From positions 22,422,412 to 22,486,411 of the forward strand of contig NC_092675.1 in NCBI RefSeq assembly GCF_964355755.1: 64,000 nucleotides of DNA, read 5' to 3'. Made by a program: the position numbers and the translations under genes. This document shows, in pieces, positions 9,117 through 54,472 of the stretch (within the stretch, counting starts at the first letter, position 1; every line of letters begins with the position of its first letter). Source of the stretch: Antedon mediterranea. Lineage: Eukaryota > Echinodermata > Crinoidea > Comatulida > Antedonidae. The notes below the pieces were generated by a model. That model saw only the letters and a program-made list of their open reading frames with translations, was not told where the DNA came from and did not search any database.

Positions 9117-10198
9117 TATTTGCGGGCTCCTAGATGATCAGCATGCTGTTTTGGTTCACCCTCTTTCAAAATAAAACAATTAAATAAATAGGCCTATATC
9201 ATCATTAATGGCTCGGCATATTGGTCATGTGGTAATAGATTTGACAATAGATTTGTGGTTACCATGTTGCTAGATAAAAGTCCAAATCCATTCTTACCGA
9301 TATACCATGAAAACAAGACATAGGCCTGAGGCTAATCCTCTCACAATAATTAGTTATTATAAACTTTGTCATTAGGCCTATTATTAATATTTTCATTTCA
9401 TAAGCATCCATCTATATGATGATGCACTATAATAATGTATCGTACCGGTACTTTATGAACAGTGATTGGAACCTCGAATAACTTTTTATTTTCTGTAGGC
9501 ACGTTGAATAAAAAAAACAGTAAAACAACAACGAACACATGATATTTAGATATAAACTTTTCACAATTCAAATAGAACACAGACTTAGGTCTGCATCATC
9601 TAAGTGGACTAATTGTTTTGACTGAATTCATACATGATTTAAGGTGATATGAACGTGAAACATTGCAGTATTAAAGATAGCTCGAACAGACAATGATGGA
9701 TGGAAAATAAACAATATTAACAAAGTAATATATTTAATTAAAGCAATGTCAAGTTAGTTGTATAATTATATGATTGATAACGGAGAAGGCAAACTAGGTA
9801 TTAAAAGAATAACCGATTACGTTAGATAATAAAGATTGATCCAATAATTGTTATCATGGTTTCCTTGAAGACCGCGTTCGCCCCAGGCCAACACATTCAT
9901 GAAATAATGATAGATCAATGGTATCATCTTTATCAGCACATTTTAGAATTTATACGCGCGCGTTCAAACACTAATTATTGTTATGCGCGTACATAATGTA
10001 CATAATGTCCAATCAAATGACAGGAATTTATTTAGGTGTTATATAATACATACTAGAGAGTTTACGAAACACGACGGAGAGGGACGACGACGGATTACCA
10101 GTGCGCGCTGATGCGTGAAAAGCTGGTTGTCGTCCACTTTAAAAAGTTCGTTTACGATACGCGATGGGACGACGACGTCGCGTCACGCTCGGCTTGAT

Positions 10199-10392
10199 AT
10201 GTTTGTAAACAATCATCATGGCTTCGTACAAGATGCATTAAATATCGCACTTTATGAAGATATAATTGACCCTGAGGAATATTTGCTTTTATATAATCTT
10301 AATAAAACAAATAATTTAAATGTTCAGTACAATGATTACAATAAATTTAATCTGGAATCTTACAATGACGACGAATGTAATGCGTTTTTCAG
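10199..10392 (+). pseudogene. PIF/Harbinger-like transposase, first coding exon
   Basis: Starting at ATG 10199, the exon encodes 64 codons plus two bases and ends at a strong donor (CAG|GTAAGT). The peptide has the pattern EEYLLLYNLNKTNNL, then a YNKFNLES and a DDECNAFFR block. This resembles the N-terminus of HARBI1-type transposases, where a D/E-x-LLLYDLN stretch precedes DDECKAEFRF and the DDE nuclease domain. No following exon with the DDE catalytic residues was found in the insert, so this is a truncated copy or an orphan exon. The match rests on memory of the family pattern. Confidence 0.55.
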
Positions 10393-10452
10393 GTAAGTCC
10401 GGGGATAAGTCACCCACAAGCCAATCATTCATCATATTACTAAGGAGTGTTG

Positions 10453-12511
10453 ACAAAGTGCGAGGCAGCGAGGCACGCGAGGCAAGCGAGGCATGCGCGG
10501 CATGCGCGGCATGCCAAATATTTGTGCGAGGCATCATTTTATCATTTCCAAAAGTGCGAGGCATGCGAGGCATATAGTTTACAATTTCAAAAAGGTGCGA
10601 GGCATATCTTAACGTGCTATTATGCTATATTATAGGCCTAATAATCAATCGATACAAGCGTATCTAAATAGATTCGTGTATACACTCATCATGTTGTTTA
10701 TTTTTATGTAACGATTGTTTTTTCATTCAAGTCATATCGTGTCAAATTTTACTTTTACAAAAGTGCCCAAACTACGGTTCAAAAATCTTAACGACAGTCT
10801 TCAACTTTCGATAAACAATAGTTGTTATAGCGACACACTCATCAAATGACTGCAATGTTTGTTGGCATTTCGAGCGTGTTCACTCACATGTCTCTCGAAC
10901 ATAGCAGAGTGAAAATAATATTTTGTCACACCCCTGCGCCTAGATCCGGTAGACCCGAGAGATGGAAATTCCCTCTTTACTATTTAGCAGGTAGCGGAAT
11001 GATTCAGCCCTCAGCTCAGAGGATTGTGGTGCATTCCCCTTCTATAGCACGTGGTTTCAGCAGCAACGCACAGACTTCTCTCTGAGCGGCGTGCCAAAGA
11101 CATTTTTGACATTCCATTCTCTAGGAACAACACGTGTACCTCTCTCGCAAATAAGGTGAACAGCGATTGCCAGGACAAGTTCAATAACTGGCGGTGAATA
11201 AAAGGTAACTGATATGGCGATCCAATAACATGCCGCAAAGAAAAAAATTGCGACAGAATTCTGGAGCGAGTGTGAAAAAAGACTTACGTCCGACAATTGT
11301 AATACTAGGCCTAAAATTAAACTTTAGCTAATATGCTTAGCCCTAACCTAGATAAGAGGCCTATGTAGAAAATAATTTAATCAATTTTGATATAATAATA
11401 ATTGGTGTAATATTTAATAATGATACACTATTCCTGTTTTAGTAAGCTAGGTATATTACGAACGATTTTTATTTATTGTTGTCCATGTACGTACTAATAA
11501 ACCTGGCGCTAGTTTCCTTCGCTTGTATTTTTACTCCAAATTTGATAACTAACTTTATCGTGTGAATACCAAACCTTAGAAGTATACCTCATGAGTACTT
11601 TAATGAAAGAATCACATAAAAAGTAACAAATAAATCCTTAAATTAATGATTTTACATGCGTGTTTCTCGAACACTGTTCGCGAATTTCACTTATTCAATG
11701 TTCAATATTTTTGTTTCTATGGAGCGCCAACAGAGCAACGATAATAGAGGACTAAAACTCAGTGGAATGCGTCAATTTCTCATGCATTTATTGGTGAAAA
11801 ACACGTTTTATTTCAATATATTTGTTAATTTGTCAATAAAAATGCTGTAATATGTTACTGCTGATACTGTTCTGTTTTCAAAGAATAATAATCGATCCTA
11901 AATCAACATCACTACCTAGTCTAGACCTAGGACATCCTACTAAGGATATTATGATGAATTTTTCTATTTTATTCTTTAAAAGGTTAACGAAACCGTGTAC
12001 ATTATCAACAGTAATATTTTTCCTTACTGACAGTGACAAAATCTATTGAAATTGTACTTGATTTTCACCAAATAATGCGTTAAATATAAATGGATTCCAC
12101 AGAGTTTTTAGCCCTCTAATTAATTTTGCTCTTTTGGCGTTCCATAGAAACCAAAATATTGAACATTGAGTGTGTGAAATGCGAGAAAAACAACGTCTGT
12201 AAAATCACCAATTTAATGGATTTATTGTTACTTTTATGTGATTTTTCTTCATTAAAGTAGGCCTACTAATTCTAAGCTGTGGTATTCAGGATAAAGTTGG
12301 TTAAAATACAAGGCAGGTGCAAAAGGAAACTAGCCTAGCGGGCCTAGGCCTAGGCTACTTCAATTTCGGTGATTTCCTGCCTTGCAATTTTGAGAAATGA
12401 TAAAATGATGCCTCGCATTTTTTGATGATGGTAAAACGATGCCTCGCATAAATTTCTGACTTGCCTCGCATGCCTTCCCTGCCTCGCGTGCCTCGCTGCC
12501 TCGCACTTTGT
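10453..12511. mobile_element. TIR element with GCGAGGCA subterminal repeats
   Basis: The left end reads ACAAAGTGCGAGGCAGCGAG followed by GCACGCGAGGCA. The right end (12480-12511) is its reverse complement, ending ...CTCGCACTTTGT. Inside the left terminus GCGAGGCA/GCATGCGCGGCATGC motifs repeat to about 10600, and the right terminus has matching TGCCTCGC repeats from about 12400. This layout resembles foldback-type DNA transposons. No transposase frame was found between the ends and no target duplication could be fixed. Confidence 0.6.
11495..12345. repeat. Long imperfect inverted repeat (hairpin) inside the insert
   Basis: Arms of about 300 bp at roughly 11497-11790 and 12080-12340 are mutual reverse complements with mismatches. 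Matching landmarks are TTTCTATGGAGCGCCAACAG with CTTTTGGCGTTCCATAGAAA, and CACATAAAAAGTAACAAATA with TATTGTTACTTTTATGTG. It could be a separate MITE nested in the TIR element, or part of that element's arms. Confidence 0.65.
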
Positions 12512-12724
12512 TACTACCCATTACTCATTAAAAATTAGTAAGATAATGTCATCACTAATTGTGTATATACTATATAATTATTGCTTGGTTATAAAGAACG
12601 AGCTGCAATGAATCTTGTGGAATTAATTATGATGAATTGTAGAAGCAAGTGAATCTTTACATCAAAGAAAAATACGTTAAAATGTATTATTAAACACACT
12701 AATTAAACAGCCATATGTTTAATA

Positions 12725-13155
12725 GTGGAGGCAGTGTGTTGTAGTTCATTGTTACCTCTATACGCTGTTTCTAATACTAGGACCATAATACAACACGCTT
12801 TTTATATCAATGTGAAACTGTCCAAACTCTCTCTATCCAATGAATTGCATTCTGATTTGATTTGAATCACCCAACATTATTTGTTTTAGTGGTCTCTAAC
12901 CGTAAAATTAATTATGAACCTTAATTGTATTATATTATTATTCCTTCTCCTTTCCTTTTTGTAAGTAATCATGTTGTTTATTTTCTTTGTTACTTGTTAA
13001 TTCTATCAACTATGTTTTGACGTATTAATAAAGAATTGAATTTAATTGAATTAATGAAGGTAATGTGTTGTAGTTCATTGCTACGTGTGACGTTGTTTCT
13101 AATAAAGATCATGAAGTCGACAAGCTACTATCAATGAAAAACTGTTTCATACATT
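12725..13155. repeat. Paired ~100-bp repeats flanking a LINE-like 3' tail
   Basis: GTGTTGTAGTTCATTG...GTTTCTAATA...ATCAATG..AAACTGT occurs at about 12734-12830 and again at 13065-13153. Between them lies an AT-rich segment ending AATAAAGAATTGAATTTAATTGAA, which looks like a LINE 3' tail. The whole block is present in inverted form in the right arm (about 52495-52925). Confidence 0.45.
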
Positions 13156-16100
13156 TTCCCCCGAAATTTATAATAATAAACCTTAATAATTTGAATCTTG
13201 AAAATGATCTACATCTTTTGTTATCTTTTTTTGTGCCATCGTGGTTTCTCTCCTCTTTAATACAGTTTGTTTCCTTCTTCTTCACTTTTTTGACCACATA
13301 ACACAATTTTTTTTACTAGCAAAAAAAAAAATAAATAAAGATTCCTTATGCATATAGATGGATTAATTCTACATAAATATTAGTATTTTCCCTCTATATT
13401 TTTTGTTAAGCTATGTTCATCATGGTAATAGTCATAGTTATCTTTTTTCTCCAATCATGTCATGTTTCGTTTCTCATAAAACATGTGCTTGAAAATGACA
13501 TTAAACGTTATATTACAAAGTGTCAGTGTCCTTTTCGAGTTTGTGTGTTTAAACACAATTCCATAACCTTATCCAGAACCTTTGTCTTAGACAAGAATTA
13601 TAGGAGAATAATCATGATCTTCTTGAAGAGTTAGAAGTACCAAAGCACACTTTTATTGTTCCTACGATAGGACCCCCTTTCTACACATTGTGTTTATTTC
13701 TTCTTCATTACTATTATCGTGTTTTTACTATTCCAATATTAATCACTTAACTATATGCTGGATTGTTGAATTCCATTTATATTGTTGTATGTGCATAGGC
13801 CCAGGGAAGAACAACAGTGAGTTGGTCTGTTCCTCTGGTTAAAATTGGAGCAAAAAATACATGCTTTTGAACAACGCATTCTCAGTCGGTTCTCGCACGG
13901 TACTATATCACATAATTATAGGTAGACTAATTATTTCGTTGTACTTCGTTGAAATATTTAAAACCTAATTTTGAGATATATATATATACCTTCTGATTCC
14001 CAGAGGTTTCACTCATTAAGCAAAGGTCTACTGAATTAGTAGTTGTAGTACTAGAAGCGGAAGAGCATGTGAGAAATAGTCTCATTGATCTAAACTTTGT
14101 AATTCGGAACTACCCTAATAATAATATAAACCGTTGTTGCCAGTCGCGTAACAAGGGCCCAGTTGGTACGAAGATAAGAATTGTCACGCTTGCTACTTTA
14201 ACGAAATACATAAGTCTCCACCACCTTAGCCCACGCATGGTGGGAGTCAACAAATGTTTAAAAATAGAGCTCACTATTTCTCAGGACCAGTCAGGTACCA
14301 TGGTTGGGGCTGGTTGGGGCTGATTAAGAACATTAAACAAAAAATAGAGCTGCTATTTTAACAAATTGAAATAATAGTCTATTTCGAAGAAGTGCCAAGC
14401 AAAAACATTATTAATCAAACCGGTTAGCATTAAATTAGACGTACGTTAAGCAAAAATTATTGACAAATTAAACTTTAGAGAATTTTTTCAGCAAATCTGG
14501 CCTTCGGTTCGCGGGTATACTACTGTCATTGGTGATGAAGGTACAGTGAATGTAATTGCTAGATCTAATTAGATTAAAGAAAGTATACGTAATATTTGCT
14601 TGTCTCAGTTCTAATGTACATCGTATTGCTAGGAACGTAGAAGGTGAAAATAGAGGAAACATGACAATTAGCAGGAAATGTGAGGAATGACGAGAATAAT
14701 ATTACATTTACTCACATCATACATTTAACCTGGGTTTACTATTTCACAATATATCCAAGTAATGAAGTTTGCATTGAATTTTACAGTAAAATGACAACCT
14801 TACATTGTGAATTCGTCATATGTTTATTAATACATTAGAGGCGAATTTAGGATTTTTCTTGAAAAGATGTCTGTTTATTAGAAGTAAATGTATCTCAGCT
14901 GTTACAAGAACAATATTAATACAGGGCCTACTTGAGCCGTGTTTATTATCCACAATAACATGTCCAAAATACATCAATAATCCAATACGACATTACAGTG
15001 ATTTAAATAGCAAAACATTTTTCATATAGTTTTATTAAAGGCCCACAAAGTAGGCCTATCGCTATTCTGTTACTACAATTACACGTAAATATCATCAAGT
15101 AAAGTTAGACTGACATAAAGCCTACATAATCATTTCTTTCAAAGCATTATGACTATTTTGTTAAATACTTTAATACATCGTTTTTATTTTGTTGAAAATG
15201 GGACCTACTTCGTATTTTAAACAAACATGAAAAAAGCAGTCGAATCTTCGCAGTTCAAAACGCTACCGAAGTCGTAGGCCTATTCATAAGGGGTGGAATA
15301 AGATCAATAACTACAATAAAATACCATTTTAAATTGTATGGATATATATACGATACATAAAAATAAATTATTTTAACTCACCAGAATATGAAATCTATAT
15401 GCAACAAGATGAGGAAATAACAGGTCTCGTATGTTATGTAGACTATATAGACGTCTTGAGAAACGTTAAGAATTCACTCTGAGCGCGTGATGATATTATA
15501 CTTGCAGTTATTAAAATAATAATTACCACGATGCTAGCTTAACAGTGTTATGTTCACAATTATAATGCACGCTAACATTATTATTACGGGATTTCCTTTG
15601 CAAAATTCTACCCATACGCACAGAAACAGCTCAATCCCAAACGTGTCTTACCGCTTAGAGAATAGTAAGATATCCAGCCGCATCTATACATGTGCGATCG
15701 ACTTGACTCAGATGATTTAGAACTGCTGAGCTGCAGAGATGAGCTTTTAATCAAACGCCACCTTAACGTAATTATCTTCTGTGTTTGTCTATTTTAGCTT
15801 GTAGGTTTGAATTCATAGAAATGATCCGCCCGTTTAATGAATCAGCCAATGAGAGTTCAGAATAAGCAAATAAGCTATATCTGTTGTTTCATTTTTTTGT
15901 GTTGAATTACTCCGCCATAACATGGATACAGATAATTGTATACATTGCCAGAATTATGATTTCAAATTTATCATAAGTCAAAATAGTAAGAGTAATCTTT
16001 GAATATTTTCTTCAAACTTCTATCATTAAATTACTGGCATTCATTAATAACCATTCTGTTAATAAATTGTTTTAATATAATTCATGCATCATATTAATGT

Positions 16101-16954
16101 AGAATTCTGATCAAACAAAAAATAACTTTTGACTTTCAAAATCAAATTATATAATTATAAAGTAAATCAATTGGGTAACTGGAAATAGTAGTCCCTAACC
16201 ATACACAATATAAACTTAAACAATAACAATAAAAATTGGTGATTTTATGAATAAACACAATTAAATTCGGTGGTGTATAAATTGGGAAGAAAACATCAAG
16301 AAGAGCAAGATTCTGACTGTCGTCTCAAATCATGGAGAAATAAGTATCAACTGATTCCTAGAAAGAACTTGGAAACGTTATTTTATCTGTTAGGAATACA
16401 AAAATTATCGCAACTCTATTATATAGAAAATAACGGGTAAAAAACTGATACCAATAGTAATGATAAATGTAAAACAAATTTAGAAATAGAATTTTTAGTA
16501 AAAATTACATTATCGAAAAACACTGTTAATTCTGCGGTAATATTCTAGAAATCATATAATAATAATATAGTCAATTACGGTGTAACGATAAAATAATTAA
16601 TATTTAATGTCCAAAATTCATATACACAAACAATTTTTCAAGTCACTATTAGTATAGTTAATTATGATAATCGTACGCTACACTACAGCAAAAACGAATT
16701 ATGTTAATTGTTCGTTTGTTCACCAATTTTTTTATTTACAAGTAACCTTCTGTACCGTGGTGGGGCACCTAAAATAAATTGTTCATCCATTACTAAACAA
16801 AAAAACATGCCATTTTCGCTTAGCCAACATTATAGCTATAGTTATTACATTTTCAATATCCTGTATGTCATGAATTTCTCACCACTCGGAAGTCCAGATG
16901 GTACGCATGCATACACCTGGGAGGAATAAACTTTTTTCCCCGACTGAAAAAGGT

Positions 16955-17255
16955 CTACGCTTGCGTTTTTTAAGCCTCTAGGCCTGATGTTTCCAAAGTA
17001 TAAAATGCAATTTTTTGAAGACCTGCAGCTCTAGTTTTAAACATTTTCTTAGCTCAGCCCCAACAATAAAGCTGGTCATATTTCGAAGAACAAGAAGTAC
17101 GTATTTTCCGGGACCTAACATCTCTATTTTTCAAACATTTCTTAGCTCAGTCACAACCCATGATAGGGACTTATATATTTTTTTTCATGTTTTGAAGTAT
17201 AATAAGTCCAATTTCCGGGACCTTCAACTCTATTTTTCTAAATTTTCTTTGAACT
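16955..17255. repeat. Degenerate tandem repeat, ~105-bp period
   Basis: Units with ACCT..AACTCTATTTTTC.AACATTTTCTTAGCTCAG and a TTCCGGGACCT junction recur at about 17017, 17112 and 17219, the last truncated. The divergence between units suggests an old tandem duplication. No coding potential. Confidence 0.5.
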
Positions 17256-17384
17256 TTTATTTTTTAAATTGAAAAATATGGATTGAAACAGTCATCGCGC
17301 ATCGTTTTTTTGCACGCAGTATTTTATTTAGGCCCTATGCATTATAAAAAATGGAAAAAATGGTTACCCTAAATCTGATTAAAA

Positions 17385-17695
17385 AGACCTCAAATGACGC
17401 TAGAACGCGTTGCTTCCGGCCCTTGGCGGCCCCTGGCCCTCAGCCTAGTGATGCTCGCTTCGCTCGCATAGCCCCCCTCGTCGGGGAATGCAGCCACCTG
17501 GCGCCACCCCTGCTGAGTTGGCCTCATCACGAAAGCGTTAAGTTCTGGTGTCCATCGTTCAACTAGCCCAAGCCACAACAGAGAGTCTTACATCAGTCTT
17601 TAGAACGTCAAATAACGCAAATTTGACCGGGGGCCCTTGGCGGCCCCCTGGCCCCCAGCCATTGTTGCTCGCTTCGCTCGCACGCCCCCCCCCCC
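17385..17695. repeat. GC-rich two-unit repeat with GCTCGCTTCGCTCGC palindromes
   Basis: Two blocks share CAAATGACGC/CAAATAACGC, then CCCTTGGCGGCCCC, TGGCCC..CAGCC, and GCTCGCTTCGCTCGC, at about 17390-17475 and 17605-17690. The second ends in a long C run. The composition contrasts sharply with the AT-rich surroundings. Short frames on both strands are by-products of GC richness. Confidence 0.55.
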
Positions 17696-18154
17696 CCCCA
17701 TTATAAATGCTGCATACGGGCCTGGTTTCAGACAGGACGCTATTTCTTCTCACTACCGTTCTCAAATTTAACGCTACGGTGAGTCTCAAATTTCTGCGCA
17801 TGCGTGGATCACATTTCGGTTCAAATTACCGTACTGAACTACTTCCGTACTACAACGAATAAGGCCTAATACAGATTAACGTACAGCAATAGTATTTTAG
17901 GATAGATAATTCATTACACAGTCTTTATAAACAAGGAAAACAGCAAAGTGACCCATATGATTTTACCTGTAGTAATAACATTTGAGATAAAACGAATGTC
18001 ATCATATCATTCTCCTCTAATTCACGCCTTGAATACATGATTAAAAGAACGCGACATATTGACGATAATTATTATACAACCGATTCAGATTATGCGCAAC
18101 AGACAATTAACCTATAGTTTACTGTCTATGTATTGAAGCACCAGTATTGCGCAC

Positions 18155-19193
18155 GCGCAGCACCGTATGTAAGAAAATTGCAGTTTGAAACACTGTCTGT
18201 ATAATAGCAAGACAATGTAGATTGCCTTGATCTTAGTCATTCACTTTTGGAATTGGATTAACAAAAATATTTACCCGAGAAAAAATCTGTAATTTAAATC
18301 CAAAAAAATTGTAAAATTGGCTGTTTGCCAATAGATTTTTGTTTGAAATTAACCGTTTATTTTGTCTTTTTATAAATAAAAGGGGTTTTTTTTCATTTCA
18401 TTTTTTTTTTACACGGATGTGATTTTATTTAAACTACAAAATGGCCTATTCATTGAAATGAAGTTTTAATCTAATATGTATAGTGGTTATTTTATCACAT
18501 GATCCTTTTGTAAAATTTCAAATTAAGTTCTGATTTATTTTCATTCTCCACGAATAATGTCAACTCTAGCCATGGATGGAATAAGATCATTCAAAATCGA
18601 ATAACCATGGAATAACATTCTTAATTTCCTACTACTACTGTAAATAAGTGACAATTGTACAGTTTAGGTCCGATGGCAAAACTGGACCATGTAATAAAAA
18701 CAAATCAAAATCATGTTACTTTTCTGGTCAATGTTTTGTATTTTTAATATGTATCGTTTAGAGGCAAAATAAAAGAATTTTTAGGCCTAATTACGTGCAT
18801 TCAAGTTATAATTCTCGAATTTGAAGCATACCATAAAAGACTGTTTGTCATTATCAGATTTCGTCATCTTTACCGTTTAAAATTTTATTTTCAGTAAATT
18901 TAAAATATCAAAATTTCCTATTATACCACTAGTTCCGACAGCAATATTATTATGCTTATAATAAACAAGGAGTTTGTTTGCTGTACCTTAATTTGTTTTC
19001 AATTGTGTCATAGGGACTAGAGAGCCGGCAAGTTGGTTCCTACACACCAACTAACATTAGCAAAAACTGTGCCCATTAATCCAACCTTTCCTGGCATCTT
19101 TCAAAAGAATAATGAAAGGATCCTTCAGAAATAAAAGTTCAATCTATCAAGTAACTTTTACGAATGTGTTGTTGGTATTAGGCATATTTTATA
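18155..19193. repeat. 1039-bp direct repeat, copy 2
   Basis: Same orientation, same length and nearly identical to 8078-9116. The flanks differ from copy 1 on both sides (left ..TTGCGCAC, right CTACTACTACTG). The near identity suggests a recent event. Confidence 0.85.
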
Positions 19194-19970
19194 CTACTAC
19201 TACTGTAAATTATATTCTTAAAAATGGTTACTTTGACTTGAAGTTGACGGCTTGAATAAAGCTTTAAAGAAAGTTTACGGGTGGAAACCTCACAACATAG
19301 ACCATACATATTTAACATGAGCTTTCTAACTCAAGTTATTAGACTGGTAGTAACTACGAATTAAAACTTATATTATAAAAAAGCTAAGATTTGAACCAGG
19401 ACTAAAGGATTGAAAACCGACCAACTTTCTGTTCTATACAAACATATTATATTTAACTATAAAAATCACCCCAATATAGGTGAATCAAATTACAACTAAC
19501 CATTACAACTCCCTGAACTAACCAACTCAGGAAATGTGTAACAATTTATAACTGTACTCCATGATTTACACTGAAATTATATATTATTTACAATAATAAA
19601 CAAAATGGGGTCATTTAATTAAAAATGATAAGGCAAAAATCCTTTGCTTTGATTGGACATAGGGAAGATATACCCTACACGAATACATTTCCATTATATT
19701 CAAATTCAATTTTTAAATGTAACATTTGAGAAAAGTTTATAGGCAAATTTCTATTTTTTTTAAATGACCGATTAAATTAAACATTTTGATTTTTTTGGAT
19801 TAAAATATAGTTATACTACATGTACTAACATAAATTTGACTATTATATTGTTTTTAACACCTTTAATGTGTCTTTGGAAGAATACAATATGGTTATTGAA
19901 CAGGACTGTCGCCCATTTATGAATGAGATAATCCACATTCAACTTTACATTTAACCATATGCATAGTGTT
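19194..19970. other. 3' flank of MS4A-like copy 3; no gene seen
   Basis: AT-rich. Around 19385-19430 AAGATTTGAACCAGGACTAAAGG resembles the B-box region of a tRNA-derived SINE on the minus strand, but it is too degenerate to call. The 3'UTR of copy 3 probably lies just below 19971. Confidence 0.3.
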
Positions 19971-22527
19971 TTACACTGGAGGTTCTTTTTCTGGATGTTC
20001 ACTATAATCAGGCAGTTGAGCTTGCGTTATATAGTGGCCGCTGTTTTGCTGTGGTTGACCTATAACTTGATGACCCATGACCTGTTGATGACCCATGACC
20101 TGTTGTCCCATGCCTGGTTGTTGACCCATGAACTGTGGTTGACCAATGACCTGTGGTTGACCAATGACCTGTGGTTGACCATAATACTGCTGCACCATAG
20201 GATATCCTTGAACACCAACTTGACCTGCAGTAAATTTGTTGGTTTAATGTTTACGTATTCATGGCACCTTTCCCTCAAATTGAAAAAGTAATGTATATGT
20301 TTATGTAAATTAGGTCCACATAAATAACATACATAATTCAATACAAATGACAAATTTTGCATAGATAATTCCATTTCTGTTTTGTAATATTCATTAATTT
20401 ACTTTTCTTGGGCTATTCATAAAAATGTGACTTCATAAAACATTTAGGATTGAACTGTAATTAATGCATAGCTAAAAACTAGATAGCCAGGTTTCTTTAG
20501 GTCACCATTTCACTACTAATTTTTAAGAGCATAATCAATGATTGAAAGGACTCAAATCGAGAAAAATTGTAGAAACTGAAATAACAAAATATAGAAACTG
20601 TAAAATAATTGCTCACCATCTACCAGCAGAGATATGCGAACAAGACTTTAGTCACCATGTGGATTAGGCAGTTTCATGTAAAATAGACCTACTATATTTA
20701 AATACTTATTTACCATAAAATACAAAGAATATGAAATTACCAGATTGTACCACATAGGTAGCATATTGAGTCTGAAAACAGAGCAAAAATATGTGCACTT
20801 TTATAAATTATCTCATGTAATTCACACAGTTTGTTTATTAAAAAAACATTAACATTTAAACTGTTGTGATCTGATACACAATAGCAGGTTTATCATACAT
20901 ATATTGCTTCATGGTACTGTATATCAAATCCAGTATAGGCCTATCTGTCATACCGTAAAACCTTTTTAAGTACTTTTTAGGTGGGCTACTTTTCAAGATG
21001 AGCTTCTTTTCAAGATTACTTTTGAAAACTAAAGACTAAATTTTACATATTTGTGAACAAAATACCAAGATATTTGGCATTAAATAACCTTTGATATTCA
21101 AATAGTCTAAGTCGAAAAGAAGTCCATAATACCTTGAAAAGAAGCTCAGTGGATTAAGAGATGGTCTTATTTTCGAAAGAGGTTTTACAGTATACTGTAC
21201 GAGTATAATACTGTATGAGTATAATACTGTATGAGTATAATACTGTATGAGTATAATACTGTATGAGTATAATACTGTATGAGTATAATACTGTACGAGT
21301 ATAATACTGTACGAGTATAATACTGTACGAGTATAATACTGTACGAGTATAATACTGTACGAGTATAATACTGTACGAGTATAATACTGTACGAGTATAA
21401 TACTGTACGAGTATAATACTGTACGAGTATAATACTGTACGAGTATAATACTGTACGAGTATAATACTGTACGAGTATAATACTGTACGAGTATAATACT
21501 GTACGAGTATAATACTGTACGAGTATAATACTGTACGAGTATAATACTGTATGAGTATAATACTGTATGAGTATAATACTGTATGAGTATAATACTGTAC
21601 ATAAACAATGATATAAATATTTTGAGCAAAATAAGAAACTCACATTTGTTGGTGTTCCACAGCAACATGTTGCACCAGAGCACATGTAGACTGACGAAAT
21701 TATTGCAACCACAAGTTCTATGCCTCCAATTATCGTACAAAGAATGTCAACAGCCCTACCACCTCCCTATGTATGTAAATAATGTTGCAAACATTAGTGC
21801 ATATTCTATACTTTTTGTCAGCAAGCATGTAGTAATTTTCCAATTACATGATATGATAGATTTGCATAAATTGTCTAGTATTACTCACATAATAGTAGTA
21901 GGCAGCACTGCTAATACTACCAATAATAACATGAACTCCTGCTGTAACAGCTGCCATTATTGACATCACAAGACAACCAACAATCTGTAAATATATGTTA
22001 CAATTTATTTGTAAGACTAAACCTTTTACCAGTATTCATACGAATAATAAATTAATACATTAAATTCAATCACAGTAACTTACAGCACAAGAGTTTTGTC
22101 CTTTAGAATGTCCAGCAATTATTCCCAGAATTCCAGCAACAAGATAAAACTGTTAGGGGAAAAAATGGCATGAACCTAATCAAAATTAGATGTAGTAACA
22201 ACATACAACATTTTACAAATTTTAATATTAGTTTTCAATATAAAATATTCAAATAAGCAGTTATACTGGTTAGGTATCATAACAAAAATATGTAATAATC
22301 ATTACCCCAAGTGCACCCCATATTGGTACAGCAATATATCCTTGAGTAAATCCAAGAAAAATACACCCTACACCAAAAGCAAGCGATAAAACAGATAAAC
22401 TAATTTGGATATAGCCAGTCACTAGTGCAGCTTTAGTGTTTAAACTTGAAACTTTTCCTGGCTGTTGATAGTAAATTACTGGTCCAGCCTCTGGGGCAAC
22501 TTGCAGTGGCACAGTAGTTGTCGTCAT
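19971..22527 (-). CDS. MS4A/CD20-like four-pass membrane protein, copy 3 (complete, 263 aa)
   Basis: Six coding exons: 22306-22527, 22084-22149, 21889-21984, 21644-21766, 20741-20771 and 19971-20224. Total 792 bp, in frame. The first four are multiples of three; exon 5 ends after one base of a Gly codon. Each membrane segment sits on or near an exon: TM1 at about residues 34-60, TM2 at 63-95, TM3 in exon 3 (starting IVGCLVMSIMAAVTAG), TM4 in exon 4 (ILCTIIGGIELVVAII), then a Cys-rich turn (CSGATCCCGTPTN). The last exon is a Gln/Gly/Pro tail of VIGQPQ / VMGHQQ units ending in an LPDYSEHP motif and a short acidic-basic end. The layout fits the CD20/MS4A fold with cytosolic ends. An acceptor (TTTTCTAG) at 22551 shows a 5'UTR intron. 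Intron 4 holds a MITE and a 16-bp minisatellite. Partners and function are unknown. Confidence 0.8.
20950..21194. mobile_element. MITE with ACCGTAAAACC termini
   Basis: The left end ACCGTAAAACCTTTTTAAG pairs with CGAAAGAGGTTTTACAGTA at the right end. Internal copies of AAGATGAGCTTCTTTTCAAG and CTTGAAAAGAAGCTCAG are also inverted. It lies in intron 4 of MS4A-like copy 3, immediately before the 16-bp minisatellite, whose unit resembles the MITE end (ACAGTATACTGTA). Confidence 0.6.
21195..21600. repeat. 16-bp minisatellite, 25 units
   Basis: The unit is CTGTACGAGTATAATA. Going left to right, one C-type unit (CTGTACG) is followed by five T-type units (CTGTATG), sixteen C-type and three T-type, then a partial. 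Long minus-strand frames across it (periodic YSYSIILVQYYTRTVL) only reflect the 16-bp period and are not genes. Confidence 0.9.
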
Positions 22528-22550
22528 TGTACAGTATTTGCTAATAAAAT

Positions 22551-24711
22551 CTAGAAAAGAAAACAATCTGCATTAGCAATACCAGATCCAAACAGTGTTT
22601 AATTCAACACAAATGTAACAAAATGACCGCTCTGATAAATTTTATAAAATATTATTCGTATTAGTCATATGGCAAAGTCACAAGTGTTCTTAGTACTCTA
22701 CCCTACAGTATTACTACTAGTATTCCTAGTACTAGAGTAGCTAGACTACTACTACTACTTCTACTAGGCCTATATTATATAGTAGTAATAGTAAACTAGC
22801 CTAGCTAGTTGGGCTAGTATAACTATCTATATGGTCTAGTGTTTAGTTACTTGGTTAATAATACATAAAAAATAGGCCTAGTAATTACTTTTTTTTTACA
22901 AACTTTTTTTACTACTTTCTAGGTAGCCTAACCCTAAAGTACTAGCTAGGCCTAGAGCTACTACTACTAGGCCTAGGCTAGATAGTAGTAGGTAGCCGGC
23001 CTAGGCCCACGAATGATTAAATCCCGGCGGACCCGGTTGATCAGCAAGGCCTCCTAGGCTAGAGCCTACTAGTAGATAGAGGCTAGTAGGCCTAGGCTAG
23101 CTTCTAGCTACCTAACCTACTACGGACATCCCTTACTACAGAGGTAGGCTACCTACTTACTATACCTACTAGAGGGTGGCCTAGATAGCTAGGAATATTC
23201 ACTAGCTAGGGCCTAGTATATTAATAATTATTACGTATTGTTTGATACTTTATAAACACTTCCTTGTTTGCTCTTTCTTTACTCTATAATTAACTATTAA
23301 TTATTGCGTCGTCAATAAACAAAACCAACCAAGTGTATCAAACCAAAATGTATGACGTCACAATTTCCAACTTTTTGTTGTTAATGCGTTGCTCAAGGAT
23401 TTGTATGGAGGGCAATATCCGTCAAAATAAACAAATCAAAACAGTACTTCTTACTTGTGTTGTAAGCAACTTTTATAGTTAGCATATTATAAATAAGTGA
23501 GAATAATTACCATAGATTTTTTCTCCATGCTCTATAAAATAATATGCCAGTTGGTTGTGATTTTTTTTATTTGTTGTGTTTTTTTAGAATGATCATCCCC
23601 ATCCATCACACTTTTGCATCCAGTGGTTAGTACGGTAGTAGTAGCAGGAATAACAGAAGGTGATTGATAATGTAAGAAGTTAATAATCCAAATAAATCAT
23701 GCATTGAGGATTTTTATTCTTTAAGAATCTAAAATAAACAATACAAAATATGGCAATACAAATTAGATTTTAAAATGAACTATACTTGGTATATAAATAT
23801 GGACACATAATTCCTATTAGATAGAAATATAAATTCCTTTATAATTTGTGCAAGCTTTTGCTTGATAGTGAAGTTTAAAATAAACAAGGTGCTAATACAC
23901 TACACTTTAATGAAAATGCATGTGTTGCTACTTGTATTAGAAATATTGCTTACTTATACTTATTCTTGAGAGTTTTAAAATTATTATTATTATTATTTAT
24001 TGCCAAAAACCAGTTACAAACAAACAAAACACAGAAACTAAGGGAGTAGGCAGGAACCTAAAAGTGAACCTAATCACTATAACAAGAGTTCAGGTTCCGT
24101 ACTCCCAAAGTAACAACAATGATATAAAATAAACTATATAAAATGCAGTATTATGGTCAACATAATTTGTTTATGGAAAGAAGAAAAAAAGTTAATGATG
24201 ATTACGAGTTTGTAGAGAGATCAAAATCATGCTATGCCTATTCAAGGATGCTTTCATCTGAACTATACGGCTGATAAATATAAGTTTTAGAAATATTACT
24301 GTATTTGGAAGAACCAACAAAGATACAAGGTAGTAGTAAATACTTCTAACCACCAAGCTACATTGCAACTACAAACTTGTATAACATTTCACACAATACT
24401 GACTGCAGCATAACTAAGCAGATACATTTTACTATAAAAATACTAAATAATTAAATAGCATGAATGCTGTTGAATCTTGAATATTATAGGCCTACTAATG
24501 ACAAATAATCATGGTTCCAAGTAAACATTTCTTTGAATAACCAGGTTAGAATGCCATTTACTAACGTGTCAATACAATTCTTTCTTAGACATTCTATACT
24601 AATTGTCTATGAAACTAGCAACAGTTACTTGATTTTATATATTTTTGCTTTGAATGTATTGAAGAGGTCTTCTGCCTATTTATAAATGGATCACCCACAT
24701 TACTCAAGCAA
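22551..24711. other. Intergenic between MS4A-like copies 3 and 4; CTAG-rich block
   Basis: From about 22690 to 23225 the DNA is packed with CTAG, TAGGCCTA and TACTACTAC motifs, the densest such block in the window, lying upstream of copy 3. Its 5' non-coding exon and promoter may be here. Around 23975-24130 a TTA run precedes AAAACCAGTTACAAAC, which could be the tail of a LINE on the minus strand. Nothing codes convincingly. Confidence 0.4.
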
Positions 24712-27700
24712 TTATAGATGTTTTACAAGAGGTTCTTTCACTGGATGTTCACTATAAGCAGGCAGTTGTACTTGAGCTTGGTCCATATACTGGCTGTTTT
24801 GCTGTTGCAGGTGAGCTTGAGCTTGCCCCATATACTGGCTGTTTTGCTGTGGCAGTTGTTCTCCAGCTTGCCCCATATACTGGCTGTTTTGCTGTGGCAG
24901 TTGTTCTCCAGCTTGCCCCATATACTGGCTGTTTTGCTGTTGCAGGTGAGCTTGAGCTTGCCCCATATACTGGCCTTTTTGCTGTGACAGTTGTGCTTGA
25001 GCTTGGCCCGTATACTGGCTGTTTTGCTGTGGAAGTTGTGCTTGAGCTTGCCCCATATACTGGCTGTTTTGCTGTGGCAGTTGCGCTTGAGCTTGCCCCA
25101 TATACTGGCTGTTTTGCTGTGGTTGAAACATGATATGTTGTTGACCCATGACCTGTTGTTGACCCATGACCTGTTGTTGACCCATAAACTGTGGTTGACC
25201 AAAATACTGCACCATAGGGAATCCATGACCACCAACTTGTCCTGTAGTGAATCAGGATTTAAAGTGTATTAGATCCTAATTGACTACAATCAGACATACT
25301 CAGTTAAGCTTTTACCATAAGGCCAATTTACACAGACAAGTGGTAACGTTAGGTGGAAACAGCGTGATTGTCCCACATAGAAATTGTGTTTATCATGGGC
25401 AGGTTTCCGCTCAACTGCTCATCCACGTGGAAGGGCCTCTAGTATATACATTGAAAGAGATTTGAAAATGCATCCTTGTAAAATTCGTTAAAAATGCATT
25501 AAATACTGTAAATCTGTTGAAAATTGTGTGTCTATTCTAAAACTGAAAATCTTGCTTAATAAGCCACAAATAGAGAGAAGCTCATAACCCATTAATTTTT
25601 TGAAAAAGAAAAAACAATTGTGATACATAAATAATATCTTACCAGATTGTACCACATAGGATGTATATTGAGTCTGGAAAATAAAGCAAAATAACAATAT
25701 TATTAAAGACACCTTCCCTACAATTTGGGACGTTTTGTAGAAATAATACATATATATTACTTTAAAAACATTAAACCGGGTCATTCCTTGTCTAAAATGT
25801 ACGTTTTATGGTAAATTATGATAAAAAGTGAGAAACAATGCACTACCTAAGTAGCTCGCGGCGACCGACCTCTCGTGGACGGTCTTTAGGCCTTTAGTTT
25901 TGTAGGCCTAGCTGGTAAACATCAGTAACGTACGAACATCGTACGCTAGCTATATAGGTAGCCTGATGTTGTATAGTTGCTGCATTAATTGTCTTTCTAT
26001 TTTTGCCAGACTCCGTTGATACAAATTGGGGAAAACCCGGTATTTTCGCTGAAAAGTTAGGAGTCTTCCATTTGTTTTGGCCTCACGATCGATCGAAAAG
26101 TGGGTGAATTACAGAAGAAAAACAGAAATGCGCAATGCATTTTGGGATTTATAGCGGGCCGCTATAATAATTAGAATCGACTTATTTTTCACATTTTTAA
26201 CCATTTAAAGACGAAAAAAGTTATCGCAATAGGACCATATAGTATTATTTTTACATAAAATATAGTTTATGATCTTAAAATAGATCTAAAAAACGTAGGG
26301 AAGGTGTCTTTAATCAAAATAAATAAAACAATTCTATAGGCCTACCAATACTGTCTATGTTCAAATATCAACTATACTATTCCATAATAAATCAACAATT
26401 AACATGAGTTATTTGTTAATCTGGGAAGTAAAATATATTGGGCCAATTTTTATACTGTATATTTATTATCACACACTAGCAAATCTAAAATCATACAATT
26501 AAAACTGTTATTGGCCATTATTCACCAAGAGCACGTATGAATAGGCCTATTTTCATCATAGCACTAATGGAAAAAAACAAAATTCCACTGTTTAGGTAGT
26601 TTTCCTATTGTACCACAACTCACACATAGAGATGAGCATAATAATATAGGTCTGGATTGTAAACGCCAACTCAGACAGCATTGTACGACGAAACGTCTTG
26701 ACTTGTCGGTGCTGTCTGCTTTGAATCCAGACAGGACGAGTCGTCTTAAAATAGCGTCGGACATAGATTTTAGGTCGTTGAGGCAACTCATCGGGCATCC
26801 TCGTACAACACTGTCTGAGTTGGCCTTTAGTCTCCCTACTATAGCAATAATAGAAACTCACATTTGTTGGTGTTCCACAGCAACATGTTGCACCAGAGCA
26901 CATGTAGACCGATGAAATGATTGCAACCACAAGTTCTATGCCTCCAATTATCGTACAAATAATGTTCACAACATTATGACCAGTACCCTACATTACAAAT
27001 AACACATTTCAACTGCACATTGTGACATTTTGATTAAATTTTTAAAAAAAAGAAATATTGTAATTATACAACTTTATTGATAATATAATTTAATAATAAT
27101 TGAGCGAAAATGAATTTGAAACTATAGGCCACAGAACAAAAGAGTTAACCAAACATTTGTCAGTGTTAGATGGTCCATCATAAAGGTTTGTGGTAACTCT
27201 ATAAATGTGGGAATTAACTCACAAAATAATAGTAGTCGTCAGATGCATATACATTGCTAATACTACCAATAATAACATGGACTCCTGCTGTAACAGCTGC
27301 CATTATTGACATCACAAGACAACCAATAATCTGTAAATATGTTACAATGTATTTATTGCACTGTATAGTATTACTGTACTTTATTTAAAGCCTTTATTTA
27401 TTTGTTGACACTTTTGAATCAGTGGCACTGACAATATGCAGTGCAAGAAACTAATCAGAACATATTGAAAATTTAAAAACATGAATAACTAAAACTATAA
27501 CCAAGTTTTTAAAAAAATAACTTCTAGAAACTACAGTTTACAAGCAACAATTCAATATTATAAATTGATTATTGGGAGTACTTTATAAGGATCGTTTCTC
27601 CCATGCAGAATTTAAATATTTTTTACAAAATTTATCAAATGAGTTTTTAGAAAGAGGGACAGACTCTCCTCCTAATATAAAATTTAATTTGTTTGTCATC

Positions 27701-29508: not shown

Positions 29509-30326
29509 CAAGTCGGCCCTAAACCGTTTCGGCCAAAGTCAAGTCGGCCCCACGTCAAGTCGGCCCCACGTCAAGTCGGCCCCAAGTCAACTCGGCCCCA
29601 CGTCAACTCGGCCAAAAACTAATCGGTCAACTCGGCCACAATAAAGTATGGAACGCAAAAAGTGGTTAATATTATTATGATTCTTACTATCCACGCTTTA
29701 AAAAAAATGAATAAAAAAAAATATATAATTAAATAATATCATATAAAAAAATGAACTCATTGCCGATATGAATATAAGTACCCGCGTGTTACAAAAACAC
29801 GTGCAGGTACCGCATTTTAGTAAATCGAAGACGGAGGCCTACGTTCCACCATTTGGCCATAGAAAAAATGATCGTACATCGTTTTTGTCCATGATTTGCG
29901 TTTAAAAAAAAGGGAATCCCCCGGTCAGTGAAAACACGTAGCAGTTGTAGATATCGAAAAAGCTGCCAAAGGCGCAGGGAGGCGCAGCTACGAATTGTTT
30001 TCAATTGTGCAATTAGAAATTTTATTAAACGTATTAATAAAGGAAAGTTGGTGAAATCATTCCTATTTTTTTTGCTAAATATATTATTGTCTAAATATTC
30101 ATTAAAAGTCAGAATTATTTATAGTTAAAAAATTGTTTAGAAATATTATTTTATCAATCCCCTTCATTTGCACTTTTTGCGTTCCATACTTTAACGGGGC
30201 CGAGTTGACCGATTATTTTTTGGCCGCGTTGACTTGAAGCCGAGTTGACTTGAAGCCGAGTTGACTTGAGGCCGAGTTGACTTGAGGCCGACTTGACTTT
30301 GGCCGAGACGGTTTAGGGCCGACTTG
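29509..30326. mobile_element. Foldback-like element with CAAGTCGGCC terminal arrays
   Basis: The left arm starts CAAGTCGGCCCTAAACCGTT, continues with five or more TCAAGTCGGCCCC / TCAACTCGGCC units and ends near ATGGAACGCAAAAAGTG. The right arm (about 30165-30326) is the reverse complement, from CACTTTTTGCGTTCCATAC to GGGCCGACTTG. Arms are about 150 bp with internal 13-18-bp repeats, around an AT-rich core of ~500 bp. No transposase was seen and no target duplication could be fixed. Short ORFs at 29789-30128 lie in the core and show no family features. Confidence 0.7.
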
Positions 30327-36841: not shown

Positions 36842-37588
36842 ATGGGTGACATGTTTAAAGACTTTCTTTACGAATTCAGTAATGCTTTTCCTGGAAATAA
36901 ACAACTGGAATTGAGGTTTCTTCTACAAGACTATTTACCGTTAGGTGAATTAAGTCGAGAAAACCCGGGAATGAGATTATTTAATGAATTAAAAAACGGA
37001 GGTCATATCTTCAACGATAATGTTAACATATTGTCAGAAATTGCAAACCTGACAAACAATGTCTCTGCAAAAGACAGTGTCAAAAATTACCAAAAAAAAT
37101 CAGGTATACAAAATAAGAGTGGTGCCGCAAGTTTGTCTTCGTATCGTCAAAAACTTTACAAAGCAATTATCAATATCACGGAACATGACACTGGAAACTT
37201 AATCGCGTTCTACGATTTGGATCATCATCGCTTTGGCAATAAATGGGCTGTAGTATTTCATTTGGAGAAAGAAAAAAAGTTAGACAACAAACAACCGGAA
37301 TTGAAGACGTTTGCCACAAAGTTGAATGAAAGGGCTAAACGTATATTGTTGGGCCCAGAAACTGATGATGGAAGTGGATCCCAACAATGTGCCGGTGGAA
37401 GAGCCCATAGGTCTTCAACAAAAACATCAACAAAAACAACAGCACATCAAAAACAAGTTGCTACTGGTAGAAGAGCTGGAGCAAAGAGAAGACCTGCAAA
37501 AAACACGGCAGATGACTCTAATTTTCTCAAAATGGTAGTAGGCGCAGGGATTGGTATCGTCAATACCGTGGTACGATTTCTTGAATAG
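36842..37588 (+). CDS. Single-exon death-effector-domain-like protein (248 aa)
   Basis: The frame is open from the ATG at 36842 to the stop at 37586. Residues ~1-85 match the death effector domain pattern: an amphipathic first helix (FKDFLYEFSNAF), then QLELRFLLQDYLPLGELSRE, LFNELKNGG and a last helix NVNILSEIANLTNNV, close to the FADD/caspase-8 order (EL+FL ... LE ... LF..L ... LL.EL). DEDs mediate homotypic assembly in apoptosis and inflammasome-like signalling. Residues ~86-190 have no family I recognise. Residues ~195-230 are rich in Lys, Arg, Thr and Ala with an AGAKRRPAK cluster that could be a nuclear signal, and the end (MVVGAGIGIVNTVVRFLE) is hydrophobic and could be a membrane anchor or amphipathic helix. 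No caspase or death domain follows. DEDD, which pairs a DED with basic signals, is the nearest known type, but homology is not shown. Confidence 0.65.
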   Translation: MGDMFKDFLYEFSNAFPGNKQLELRFLLQDYLPLGELSRENPGMRLFNELKNGGHIFNDNVNILSEIANLTNNVSAKDSVKNYQKKSGIQNKSGAASLSSYRQKLYKAIINITEHDTGNLIAFYDLDHHRFGNKWAVVFHLEKEKKLDNKQPELKTFATKLNERAKRILLGPETDDGSGSQQCAGGRAHRSSTKTSTKTTAHQKQVATGRRAGAKRRPAKNTADDSNFLKMVVGAGIGIVNTVVRFLE

Positions 37589-38360: not shown

Positions 38361-38459
38361 TTTTAACAAACCAATTGGAAACCTACGGTAAAAGTTAGCT
38401 TTACGGTTTCGTTTATTCGGATTGTTTTGTTGACAAATAAATTTAAATTGTATTTTTAG

Positions 38460-48955: not shown

Positions 48956-51900
48956 ACGATTATCATAATTAACTAATAGTGACTTGAAAAATTGTTTGTG
49001 TATATGAATTTTGGACATTAAATATTAATTATTTTATCGTTACACCGTAATTGACTATATTATTATTATATGATTTCTAGAATATTACCGCAGAATTAAC
49101 AGTGTTTTTCGATAATGTAATTTTTACTAAAAATTCTATTTCTAAATTTGTTTTACATTTATCATTACTATTGGTATCAGTTTTTTACCCGTTATTTTCT
49201 ATATAATAGAGTTGCGATAATTTTTGTATTCCTAACAGATAAAATAACGTTTCCAAGTTCTTTCTAGGAATCAGTTGATACTTATTTCTCCATGATTTGA
49301 GACGACAGTCAGAATCTTGCTCTTCTTGATGTTTTCTTCCCAATTTATACACCACCGAATTTAATTGTGTTTATTCATAAAATCACCAATTAAATTGTTA
49401 TTGTTTAAGTTTATATTGTGTATGGTTAGGGACTACTATTTCCGGTTACCCAATTGATTTACTTTATAATTATATAATTTGATTTTGAAAGTCAAAAGTT
49501 ATTTTTTGTTTGATCAGAATTCTACATTAATATGATGCATGAATTATATTAAAACAATTTATTAACAGAATGGTTATTAATGAATGCCAGTAATTTAATG
49601 ATAGAAGTTTGAAGAAAATATTCAAAGATTACTCTTACTATTTTGACTTATGATAAATTTGAAATCATAATTCTGGCAATGTATACAATTATCTGTATCC
49701 ATGCTATGGCGGAGTAATTCAACACAAAAAAATGAAACAACAGATATAGCTTATTTGCTTATTCTGAACTCTCATTGGCTGATTCATTAAACGGGCGGAT
49801 CATTTCTATGAATTCAAACCTACAAGCTAAAATAGACAAACACAGAAGATAATTACGTTAAGGTGGCGTTTGATTAAAAGCTCATCTCTGCAGCTCAGCA
49901 GTTCTAAATCATCTGAGTCAAGTCGATCGCACATGTATAGATGCGGCTGGATATCTTACTATTCTCTAAGCGGTAAGACACGTTTGGGATTGAGCTGTTT
50001 CTGTGCGTATGGGTAGAATTTTGCAAAGGAAATCCCGTAATAATAATGTTAGCGTGCATTATAATTGTGAACATAACACTGTTAAGCTAGCATCGTGGTA
50101 ATTATTATTTTAATAACTGCAAGTATAATATCATCACGCGCTCAGAGTGAATTCTTAACGTTTCTCAAGACGTCTATATAGTCTACATAACATACGAGAC
50201 CTGTTATTTCCTCATCTTGTTGCATATAGATTTCATATTCTGGTGAGTTAAAATAATTTATTTTTATGTATCGTATATATATCCATACAATTTAAAATGG
50301 TATTTTATTGTAGTTATTGATCTTATTCCACCCCTTATGAATAGGCCTACGACTTAGGTAGCGTTTTGAACTGCGAAGATTCGACTGCTTTTTTCATGTT
50401 TGTTTAAAATACGAAGTAGGCCCCATTTTCAACAAAATAAAAACGATGTATTAAAGTATTTAACAAAATAGTCATAATGCTTTGAAAGAAATGATTATGT
50501 AGGCTTTATGTCAGTCTAACTTTACTTGATGATATTTACGTGTAATTGTAGTTTAACAGAATAACGATAGGCCTACTTTGTGGGCCTATAATAAAACTAT
50601 ATGAAAAATGTTTTGCTATTTAAATCACTGTAATGTCGTATTGGATTATTGATGTATTTTGGACATGTTATTGTGGATAATAAACACGGCTCAAGTAGGC
50701 CCTGTATTAATATTGTTCTTGTAACAGCTGAGATACATTTACTTCTAATAAACAGAAATCTTTTCAAGAAAAATCCTAAATTCGCCTCTAATGTATTAAT
50801 AAACATATGACGAATTCACAATGTAAGGTTGTCATTTTACTGTAAAATTCAATGCAAACTTCATTACGTAGATATATTGTGAAATAGTAAACCCAGGTTA
50901 AATGTATGATGTGAGTAAATGTAATATTATTCTCGTCATTCCTCACATTTCCTGCTAATTGTCATGTTTCCTCTATTTTCACCTTCTACGTTCCTAGCAA
51001 TACGATGTACATTAGAACTGAGACAAGCAAATATTACGTATACTTTCTTTAATCTAATTAGATCTAGCAATTACATTCACTGTACCTTCATCATCAATGA
51101 CAGTAGTATACCCGCGAACCGAAGGCCAGATTTGCTGAAAAAATTCTCTAAAGTTTAATTTGTCAATAATTTTTGCTTAACGTACGTCTAATTTAATGCT
51201 AACCGGTTTGATTAATAATGTTTTTGCTTGGCACTTCTTCGAAATAGACTATTATTTCAATTTGTTAAAATAGCAGCTCTATTTTTTGTTTAATGTTCTT
51301 AATCAGCCCCAACCAGCCCCAACCATGGTACCTGACTGGTCCTGAGAAATAGTGAGCTCTATTTTTAAACATTTGTTGACTCCCACCATGCGTGGGCTAA
51401 GGTGGTGGAGACTTATGTATTTCGTTAAAGTAGCAAGCGTGACAATTCTTATCTTTGTACCAACTGGGCCCTTGTTACGCGACTGGCAACAACGGTTTAT
51501 ATCATTATTAGGGTAGTTCCGAATTACAAAGTTTAGATCAATGAGACTATTTCTCACATGCTCTTCCGCTTCTAGTACTACAACTACTAATTCAGTAGAC
51601 CTTTGCTTAATGAGTGAAACCTCTGGGAATCAGAAGGTGTATATATATATATATCTCAAAATTAGGTTTTAAATATTTCAACGAAGTACAACGAAATAAT
51701 TAGTCTACCTATATGTGATATAGTACCGTGCGAGAACCGACTGAGAATGCGTTGTTAAAAGCATGTATTTTTGGCTCCAATTTTAACCAGAGGAACAGAC
51801 CAACTCACTGTTGTTCTTCCCTGGTTCCTATGCACATACAACAATATAAATGGAATTCAACAATCCAGCATATAGTTATGTGATTAATATTAGAATAGTA

Positions 51901-54472
51901 AAAACACGATAATAGTAATGAAGAAGAAATAAACACAATGTGTAGAAAGGGGGTCCTATCGTAGGAACAATACAAGTGTGCTTTGGTACTTCTAACTCTT
52001 CAAGAAGATCATGATTATTCTCCTATAATCCTTGTCTAAGACAAAGGTTCTGGATAAGGTTATGGAATTGTGTTTAAACACACAAACTCGAAAAGGACAC
52101 TGATACTTTGTAATATAACGTTTAATGTCATTTTCAAGCACATGTTTTATGAGAAACGAAACATGACATGATTGGAAAAAAAGATAACTATGACTATTAC
52201 CATGATGAACATAGCTTAACAAAAAATATAGAGGGAAAATACTAATATTTATGTAGAATTAATCCATCTATATGCATAAGGAATCTTTATTTTTTTTTTT
52301 TTTTTGCTGGTTAAAAAAAATTGTATTATGTGGTCAAAAAAGTGAAGAAGAAGGAAACAAACTGTATTAAAGAGGAGAGAAACCACGATGGCACAAAAAA
52401 AGATAACAAAAGATGTAGATCATTTTCAAGATTCAAATTATTAAGGTTTATTATTATAAATTTCGGGGGAAAATGTATGAAACAGTTTTTCATTGATAGT
52501 AGCTTGTCGACTTCATGATCTTTATTAGAAACAACGTCACACGTAGCAATGAACTACAACACATTACCTTCATTAATTCAATTAAATTCAATTCTTTATT
52601 AATACGTCAAAACATAGTTGATAGAATTAACAAGTAACAAAGAAAATAAACAACATGATTACTTACAAAAAGGAAAGGAGAAGGAATAATAATATAATAC
52701 AATTAAGGTTCATAATTAATTTTACGGTTAGAGATCACTAAAACAAATAATGTTGGGTGATTCAAATCAAATCAGAATGCAATTCATTGGATAGAGAGAG
52801 TTTGGACAGTTTCACATTGATATAAAAAGCGTGTTGTATTATGGTCCTTAATAGAAACAGCGTATAGAGGTAACAATGAACTACAACACACTGCCTCCAC
52901 TATTAAACATATGGCTGTTTAATTAGTGTGTTTAATAATACATTTTAACGTATTTTTCTTTGATGTAAAGATTCACTTGCTTCTACAATTCATCATAATT
53001 AATTTCACAAGATTCATTGCAGCTCGTTCTTTATAACCAAGCAATAATTATATAGTATATACACAATTAGTGATGACATTATCTTACTAATCTTTAATGA
53101 ACAAGTTGTAATACTAGAGCAATTCTATCTGCTGTAAATGAGTCACTCAAGACATTGTTTCAATTTGTACGATTGGCCTTTCATTCTCTATTGAATAGAA
53201 CACTTGTGGAAATACGCTTGCAGCGCAGACAAATATTCATCTATCATTATGTAGTGAGAAGATGAGGGTGAAGATGTTATATCATTGCTCCATTGTAATA
53301 CTATTGATCTATATTAATCTGTTGGCCTGGGGCTAGCGCTTTCTTCAAGGAAACTAGAATTGCGAATTCGTCAGCGACGACCCGGATAAACACGACACGT
53401 GACGAACGCGTACAAAAGCCATCAGTGTTAAAACACGCGCGCTTACATTTCTCTTCGTAATGTTTGTATAATAATATGTATTATGTCATGTCTTATTAAT
53501 CTGCTGACCTGGGCCTAGCGTTGACTTCGATTAAATGAAGTTTGACCTGGACAATGCATCAGTGACGAACAAATGCGATAGGTGACGGACGCGCATAACA
53601 ATAATTAGTGTTTGAACGCGCGCGTATAAATTCTAAAATGTGCTGATAAAGATGATACCAATGATCTATCATTATTTCATGAATGTGTTGGCCTGGGGCG
53701 AACGCGGTCTTCAAGGAAACCATGATAACAATTATTGGATCAATCTTTATTATCTAACGTAATCGGTTATTCTTTTAATACCTAGTTTGCCTTCTCCGTT
53801 ATCAATCATATAATTATACAACTAACTTGACATTGCTTTAATTAAATATATTACTTTGTTAATATTGTTTATTTTCCATCCATCATTGTCTGTTCGAGCT
53901 ATCTTTAATACTGCAATGTTTCACGTTCATATCACCTTAAATCATGTATGAATTCAGTCAAAACAATTAGTCCACTTAGATGATGCAGGCCTAAGTCTGT
54001 GTTCTATTTGAATTGTGAAAAGTTTATATCTAAATATCATTTGTTCGTTGTTGTTTTACTGTTTTTTTATTCAACGTGCCTACAGAAAATAAAAAGTTAT
54101 TCGAGGTTCCAATCACTGTTCATAAAGTACCGGATACATTATTGTAGTGCATCATCATATAGATGGATGCTTATGAAATGAAAATATTAATAATAGGCCT
54201 AATGACAAAGTTTATAATAACTAATTATTGTGAGAGGATTAGCCTCAGGCCTGTCTTATTTTCATGGTATATCGATAAGAATGCATTTGGACTTTTATCG
54301 AGCACTAGGTTTGATAGACAAACATGGTAACCACAAATCTATTGTCCAATCTATTACCACATGACCAATATGCCGAGCCATTAATGATGATATAGGCCTA
54401 TTTATTTAATTGTTTTATTTTGAAAGAGGGTGAACCAAAACAGCATGCTGATCATCTAGGAGCCCGCAAATA
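48956..54472 (-). repeat. Large inverted duplication, right arm
   Basis: Reverse complement of 9117-16674 without the 9991-12524 insert. The arms enclose about 32 kb (16675-48955) holding the ATP5F1D, DED, ZYG11-like, UQCRH and two MS4A-like genes. Its small ORFs (50597-50806, 50964-51158, 51303-51557, 52321-52518, 53999-54181) are copies of those in the left arm, with a few residue changes and one different C-terminus (53999-54181), which argues against selection on them. Confidence 0.85.
53320..53720. repeat. Three degenerate ~180-bp units in the right arm
   Basis: TGTTGGCCTGGGGC..GCG..TTC followed by CGACG/GACGAA and a GTGTT.AA.CGCGCGC segment recurs at about 53320, 53500 and 53686, the last being the part shared with the left arm. 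The first two units fall in the part of the right arm (53101-53588) that has no match in the left arm. Confidence 0.55.

Follow-up and report, generated by a model that had tools for sequence, protein, structure and literature searches.

Positions 8075–16671 of the stretch of DNA analysed here (the window, 64,000 nucleotides long; contig C6, 22422412–22486411, of a 354-Mb assembly in 18 contigs) are best read, with a probability of about 0.6, as a two-piece templated insertion. Its first piece would be a direct copy of a sequence that we call R and its second an inverted copy of a longer arm, the originals being the other copy of each, R2 and arm 2. Both of these donors are still in place, R2 for R1 and arm 2 for arm 1, and the homology at the junctions is small, amounting to 0 bp where R1 meets the arm and 3 bp (CGT) where the arm meets a truncated transposon, element B. 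The features of the locus are listed in Table 1.

Table 1. Features of the locus, with coordinates given as positions of the window.
Feature	Position	Strand	Basis or content
R1, 1,042-bp direct repeat copy abutting arm 1, probably derived	8075–9116	+	99.8% to R2
Arm 1, outer block	9117–9990	+	Reverse complement of 53589–54472
Repeat block nested in arm 1	9991–12524	+	Repeat fragment, then element C, then element A
Arm 1, inner block	12525–16671	+	Reverse complement of ~48956–53100; the common CGT at 16672–16674 can be assigned to either side
Element B, high-copy, truncated	16672–17724	+	Right end intact at 17724, left end lost where the arm joins
Inter-arm region, ~32 kb	16675–48955		Element B, R2, two tandem gene paralogs, two further coding features
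Dispersed repeat fragment, 135 bp	17725–17859	+	26 matches listed; longer on both sides in 3 copies examined
292 bp, single-copy, left of R2	17860–18151		Genome search
R2, R copy in the ancestral place	18152–19193	+	C5 colinearity across the right boundary
Arm 2, inner block, probable donor	48956–53100	-	Alignment to arm 1
488 bp, kept only in arm 2	53101–53588	-	One genome match
Arm 2, outer block, probable donor	53589–54472	-	Alignment to arm 1

The arms are a two-copy inverted duplication

The arms were first described in a sequence-only reading of the window, which took 9117–16674 and 48956–54472 to be mutual reverse complements, and these limits proved to be the ends of the alignment. When the window was compared with itself by BLASTN, the arms aligned on the minus strand in two blocks: block a, 9117–9990 against 54472–53589, with 96.4% identity including indels over 891 columns, and block b, 12525–16681 against 53100–48949, with 98.7% identity including indels over 4,167 columns. 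The E-values for the arm homology are 0, which excludes chance. Base-by-base alignment gave 9 substitutions and 4 indels in block a and 31 substitutions and 10 indels in block b. Both blocks together hold 43 mismatches and 14 indels, but three of the mismatches (16675–16677) are past the point where homology really ends. Without them the count is 40 substitutions in ~5,000 aligned bases, or 0.8%; the divergence of a few percent suggested earlier was too high. Between the two blocks, and unnoticed in the sequence-only reading, the continuity of the arms is broken, by 2,534 bp of repeats in arm 1 versus 488 bp in arm 2.

The copy number of the arms was examined by searching the 354-Mb assembly, where matches were returned on at least 11 contigs (C1–C11; the lengths shown were 22–41 Mb). 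A 2-kb core of block b matched in full only at the two arms, with repeat fragments of less than 90 bp elsewhere, and queries spanning either end of arm 2 matched at arm 1 only. Since neither the core nor the arm 2 ends have another full match, the arms are a two-copy segmental duplication and not a dispersed transposon. Sequence reading 20 kb outwards on each side of the window revealed no further arm copy. Segmental duplications are sequences of at least 1 kb with at least 90% identity and low copy number, and here 4.15 kb are duplicated at 98.8% and 0.9 kb at 96.3–96.4%, indels included. A foldback-type transposon, or one with the arms as its terminal inverted repeats, was also considered and was rejected, there being no other copies and the outer flanks of the arms being unlike.

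The longest stop-to-stop frame within the arms is 108 codons, and the arm frames tested against Pfam gave no match. Searches of Pfam, PDB and Rfam with the arm open reading frames, a hand-joined exon product and the window returned nothing useful. The arms hold no recognisable gene, and the duplicated 5.5-kb stretch is mostly non-coding animal DNA. The locus is an ordinary segmental duplication of a known kind, not a new genetic element.

R1 is joined bluntly to arm 1

A second duplication, absent from the sequence-only reading, adjoins the first. R1 and R2 differ by 2 mismatches in 1042, and no other full-length R was found in the 354-Mb genome; inside R, ~200 bp belong to a dispersed repeat, and C5 holds a diverged relative. 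R1 passes directly into arm 1, at exactly 9116/9117. Beyond the equivalent point, R2 and arm 2 continue into sequences that are unlike each other and unlike the junction, indicating that the R1/arm 1 join is blunt, with 0 bp of homology. The left junction of R1, at 8074/8075, is ambiguous by 3 bases.

At the other end, arm 1 stops inside a broken transposon, which the sequence-only reading also missed. The join to element B falls at the CGT common to arm 2 and B, and all five of the other B copies examined extend to the left of the cut point. As a separate observation, the B copy at C1:14282575–14286636 has a second, inverted part of B ~0.7 kb off (453 bp, 95%), as if the element had long inverted ends.

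Which copies are original

C5 carries a paralogous stretch (C5:11132700–11126026, minus) that is colinear with 18489–22696 of the window, thus covering most of R2, its right flank and the neighbouring gene. It contains nothing of the arm. Because this colinearity crosses the boundary between R2 and its right flank, R2 still has its ancestral neighbour on the right, and arm 1 is a novel neighbour of R1. The C5 paralog ties R2 to what lies on its right and stops short of the insertion site. On the left, the single-copy 292 bp are a candidate, and probably the original, neighbour of R2; the C5 paralogy starts only at R position 338.

The interruption of the arms provides the second indication of direction. 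In arm 1 it consists of a short dispersed repeat fragment (9991–10053), a truncated element C (10054–10444) and an element A (10445 to ~12519), which is a high-copy element of ~2.1 kb with terminal inverted repeats. Relatives of A at 96–99% occur at dozens of places in the genome, and an 8-bp target duplication can be seen at two of its other copies. Elsewhere, three copies of C extend past the position at which A starts here; this continuation of C is absent to the right of A, probably as the result of a deletion after nesting. The 488 bp found at this position in arm 2 have a single match in the genome; set against the truncated transposons of arm 1, this single-copy sequence makes arm 2 the uninterrupted version. 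Taken together, the C5 colinearity and the completeness of arm 2 indicate that 8075–16671 is likely to be the derived copy, with R2 and arm 2 probably its donors. Dispersed repeats lying across the arm 2 junctions, or across the left edge of either R copy, were also sought as a means of polarising the copies, and none was found.

A proposed order of events

A two-piece templated insertion could have arisen as follows. A break or a stalled fork would have occurred inside transposon B. Synthesis would then have copied R2, ~1.5 kb away, in direct orientation, before switching without homology to arm 2, ~30 kb further, and copying the arm in reverse. The product would have been rejoined to B at the 3-bp CGT match, with loss of the left part of B. 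Later, transposons would have nested in copy 1, and a flanking deletion would have removed the counterpart of the 488 bp of arm 2. Templated insertions are discussed as products of template switching or microhomology-mediated break-induced replication, and the repair pathway here was probably template switching in error-prone break repair.

The relative divergence of the two pieces bears on whether there was a single event. The R copies are less diverged than the arms (Fisher p = 0.017, using the slightly higher arm count of 43), and this counts against one event unless gene conversion or unequal constraint has acted. The closer likeness of R1 and R2 points to gene conversion, to constraint or to an event that came later.

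Alternative explanations

A different arrangement of templates, a 'cycle', was considered, in which R was replicated a second time at the junction of a tandem duplication and everything from 9117 to 18151 (the arm, the piece of B, the 135-bp repeat and the 292 bp) was inserted between the R copies. This resembles a 1-kb target duplication or an insertion at a staggered break, and gives an ancestral order of flank to 8074, R, and flank from 19194. R1 and R2 do stand at the two ends of the block, precisely where the copies of a duplicated target are expected, and the R1/arm boundary is exact. However, at least three or four templates would be required, the 292 bp have no source elsewhere in the genome, and B and its right-hand neighbours resemble ordinary chromosome to the left of R2. 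We consider this arrangement rather unlikely.

Alternatively, there may have been two or more events, the inverted duplication of the arm coming first and the duplication or gene conversion of R later. This would account for the greater similarity of the R copies, but if R had been duplicated separately, the exact coincidence of the end of R1 with the start of arm 1 would be due to chance, and such a history seems improbable.

The duplication could also be an artefact of assembly, either a join of two haplotypes, as the sequence-only reading had allowed for, or a chimeric contig. A divergence of 0.8% is within the allelic range. On the other hand, a haplotig join is expected to repeat long collinear sequence, and here only ~5 kb are in common, in inverted orientation, with four different flanks and a single 32-kb spacer, making an artefact unlikely. 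The window has zero N, the flanks beyond both arms are distinct, the nested transposons differ between the arms, and the nesting and truncation of elements look like the ordinary history of a chromosome. We therefore give an artefact very little weight. The other possibility raised in that reading, a real inverted segmental duplication, is supported by the presence of two copies only, by the differing outer flanks, by the substitutions and the nested block that distinguish the arms, and by the lack of N.

Finally, an LTR retrotransposon at 8075–19193, with R as its LTRs and the second arm as another copy of its internal part, would fit 1-kb direct repeats of 99.8% identity around a 9-kb interior, but can be dismissed, given that the ends are CA...TA and not TG...CA, that there is no target duplication (TTTAT before, CTACT after), that the interior has no recognisable primer-binding or polyprotein sequence and no open reading frame of at least 150 codons, and that the 354 Mb contain no other full copy of R or of the arm core.

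Comparison with known rearrangements

Templated insertions, including 'bridges' and 'cycles' of them, have been described in cancer genomes (PMC7025897), and in those terms we infer that the locus is a 'bridge' of templated insertions. As in those cases, segments from distinct places are strung together with 0–3 bp of microhomology, each gains a copy, and one of them is inverted. Unlike the cancer cases, this one is in the germline, in the reference assembly of an animal, and both donors lie less than 50 kb away; the mechanism here is read from the anatomy of the locus. A two-piece templated insertion would make the locus a readable germline case of a multi-piece event, with both donors and all junctions preserved within 50 kb.

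In humans, inverted repeats of 1.6–24 kb bracketing 5.1–226 kb mediate inversions, often recurrently (PMC3961182). The arms described here, at ~5 kb with ~99% identity and a 32-kb spacer, are within these ranges. They differ from the human repeats in that 2.5 kb of intervening sequence splits one of them and in that inverted alleles were not observed here. The arms could plausibly promote inversion of the 32-kb spacer, and are thus candidates for inverting a small gene block. That they recombine often, that the gene block segregates in both orientations in populations and that gene conversion keeps R1 and R2 alike would be a highly speculative extension. Neither a templated insertion nor the candidacy for inversion would be surprising to a genome biologist.

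Contents of the spacer and of the rest of the window

The arms were earlier said to bracket most of the genes in the window. The ~32 kb between them does hold genes, but gene copies are also present to the left of arm 1. Paralogous genes form a tandem array on the minus strand, at 1–1287, 5260–7556, 19971–22572 and 24712–29099. They have hydrophobic exons and end in a repetitive, Q-rich tail, and to the eye are similar to MS4A/CD20-like four-span membrane proteins, but a hand-joined exon product gave no match in Pfam and no meaningful one in PDB. C5 carries a further paralog, and part of another is present ~10 kb to the left of the window. The spacer also contains an ATP synthase delta/epsilon exon (32652–33218, minus) and an open reading frame of 248 codons (36842–37588, +), which has a basic tail and a match to the death effector domain that falls below the Pfam cut-off (E = 1.8e-6). 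Both features agree with an animal source.

Several smaller repeats were seen. Two may be small transposons: an imperfect palindrome of ~176 bp (83.5%) at 31916–32091, and a 156-bp inverted repeat pair (89%) at 29509–29664 and 30171–30326. A tandem array with a 16-bp period and units ~97% alike lies in or near an array gene, at 21192–21600, and another at 60192–61032 has a 94-bp period and about nine units that are 96–97% alike.
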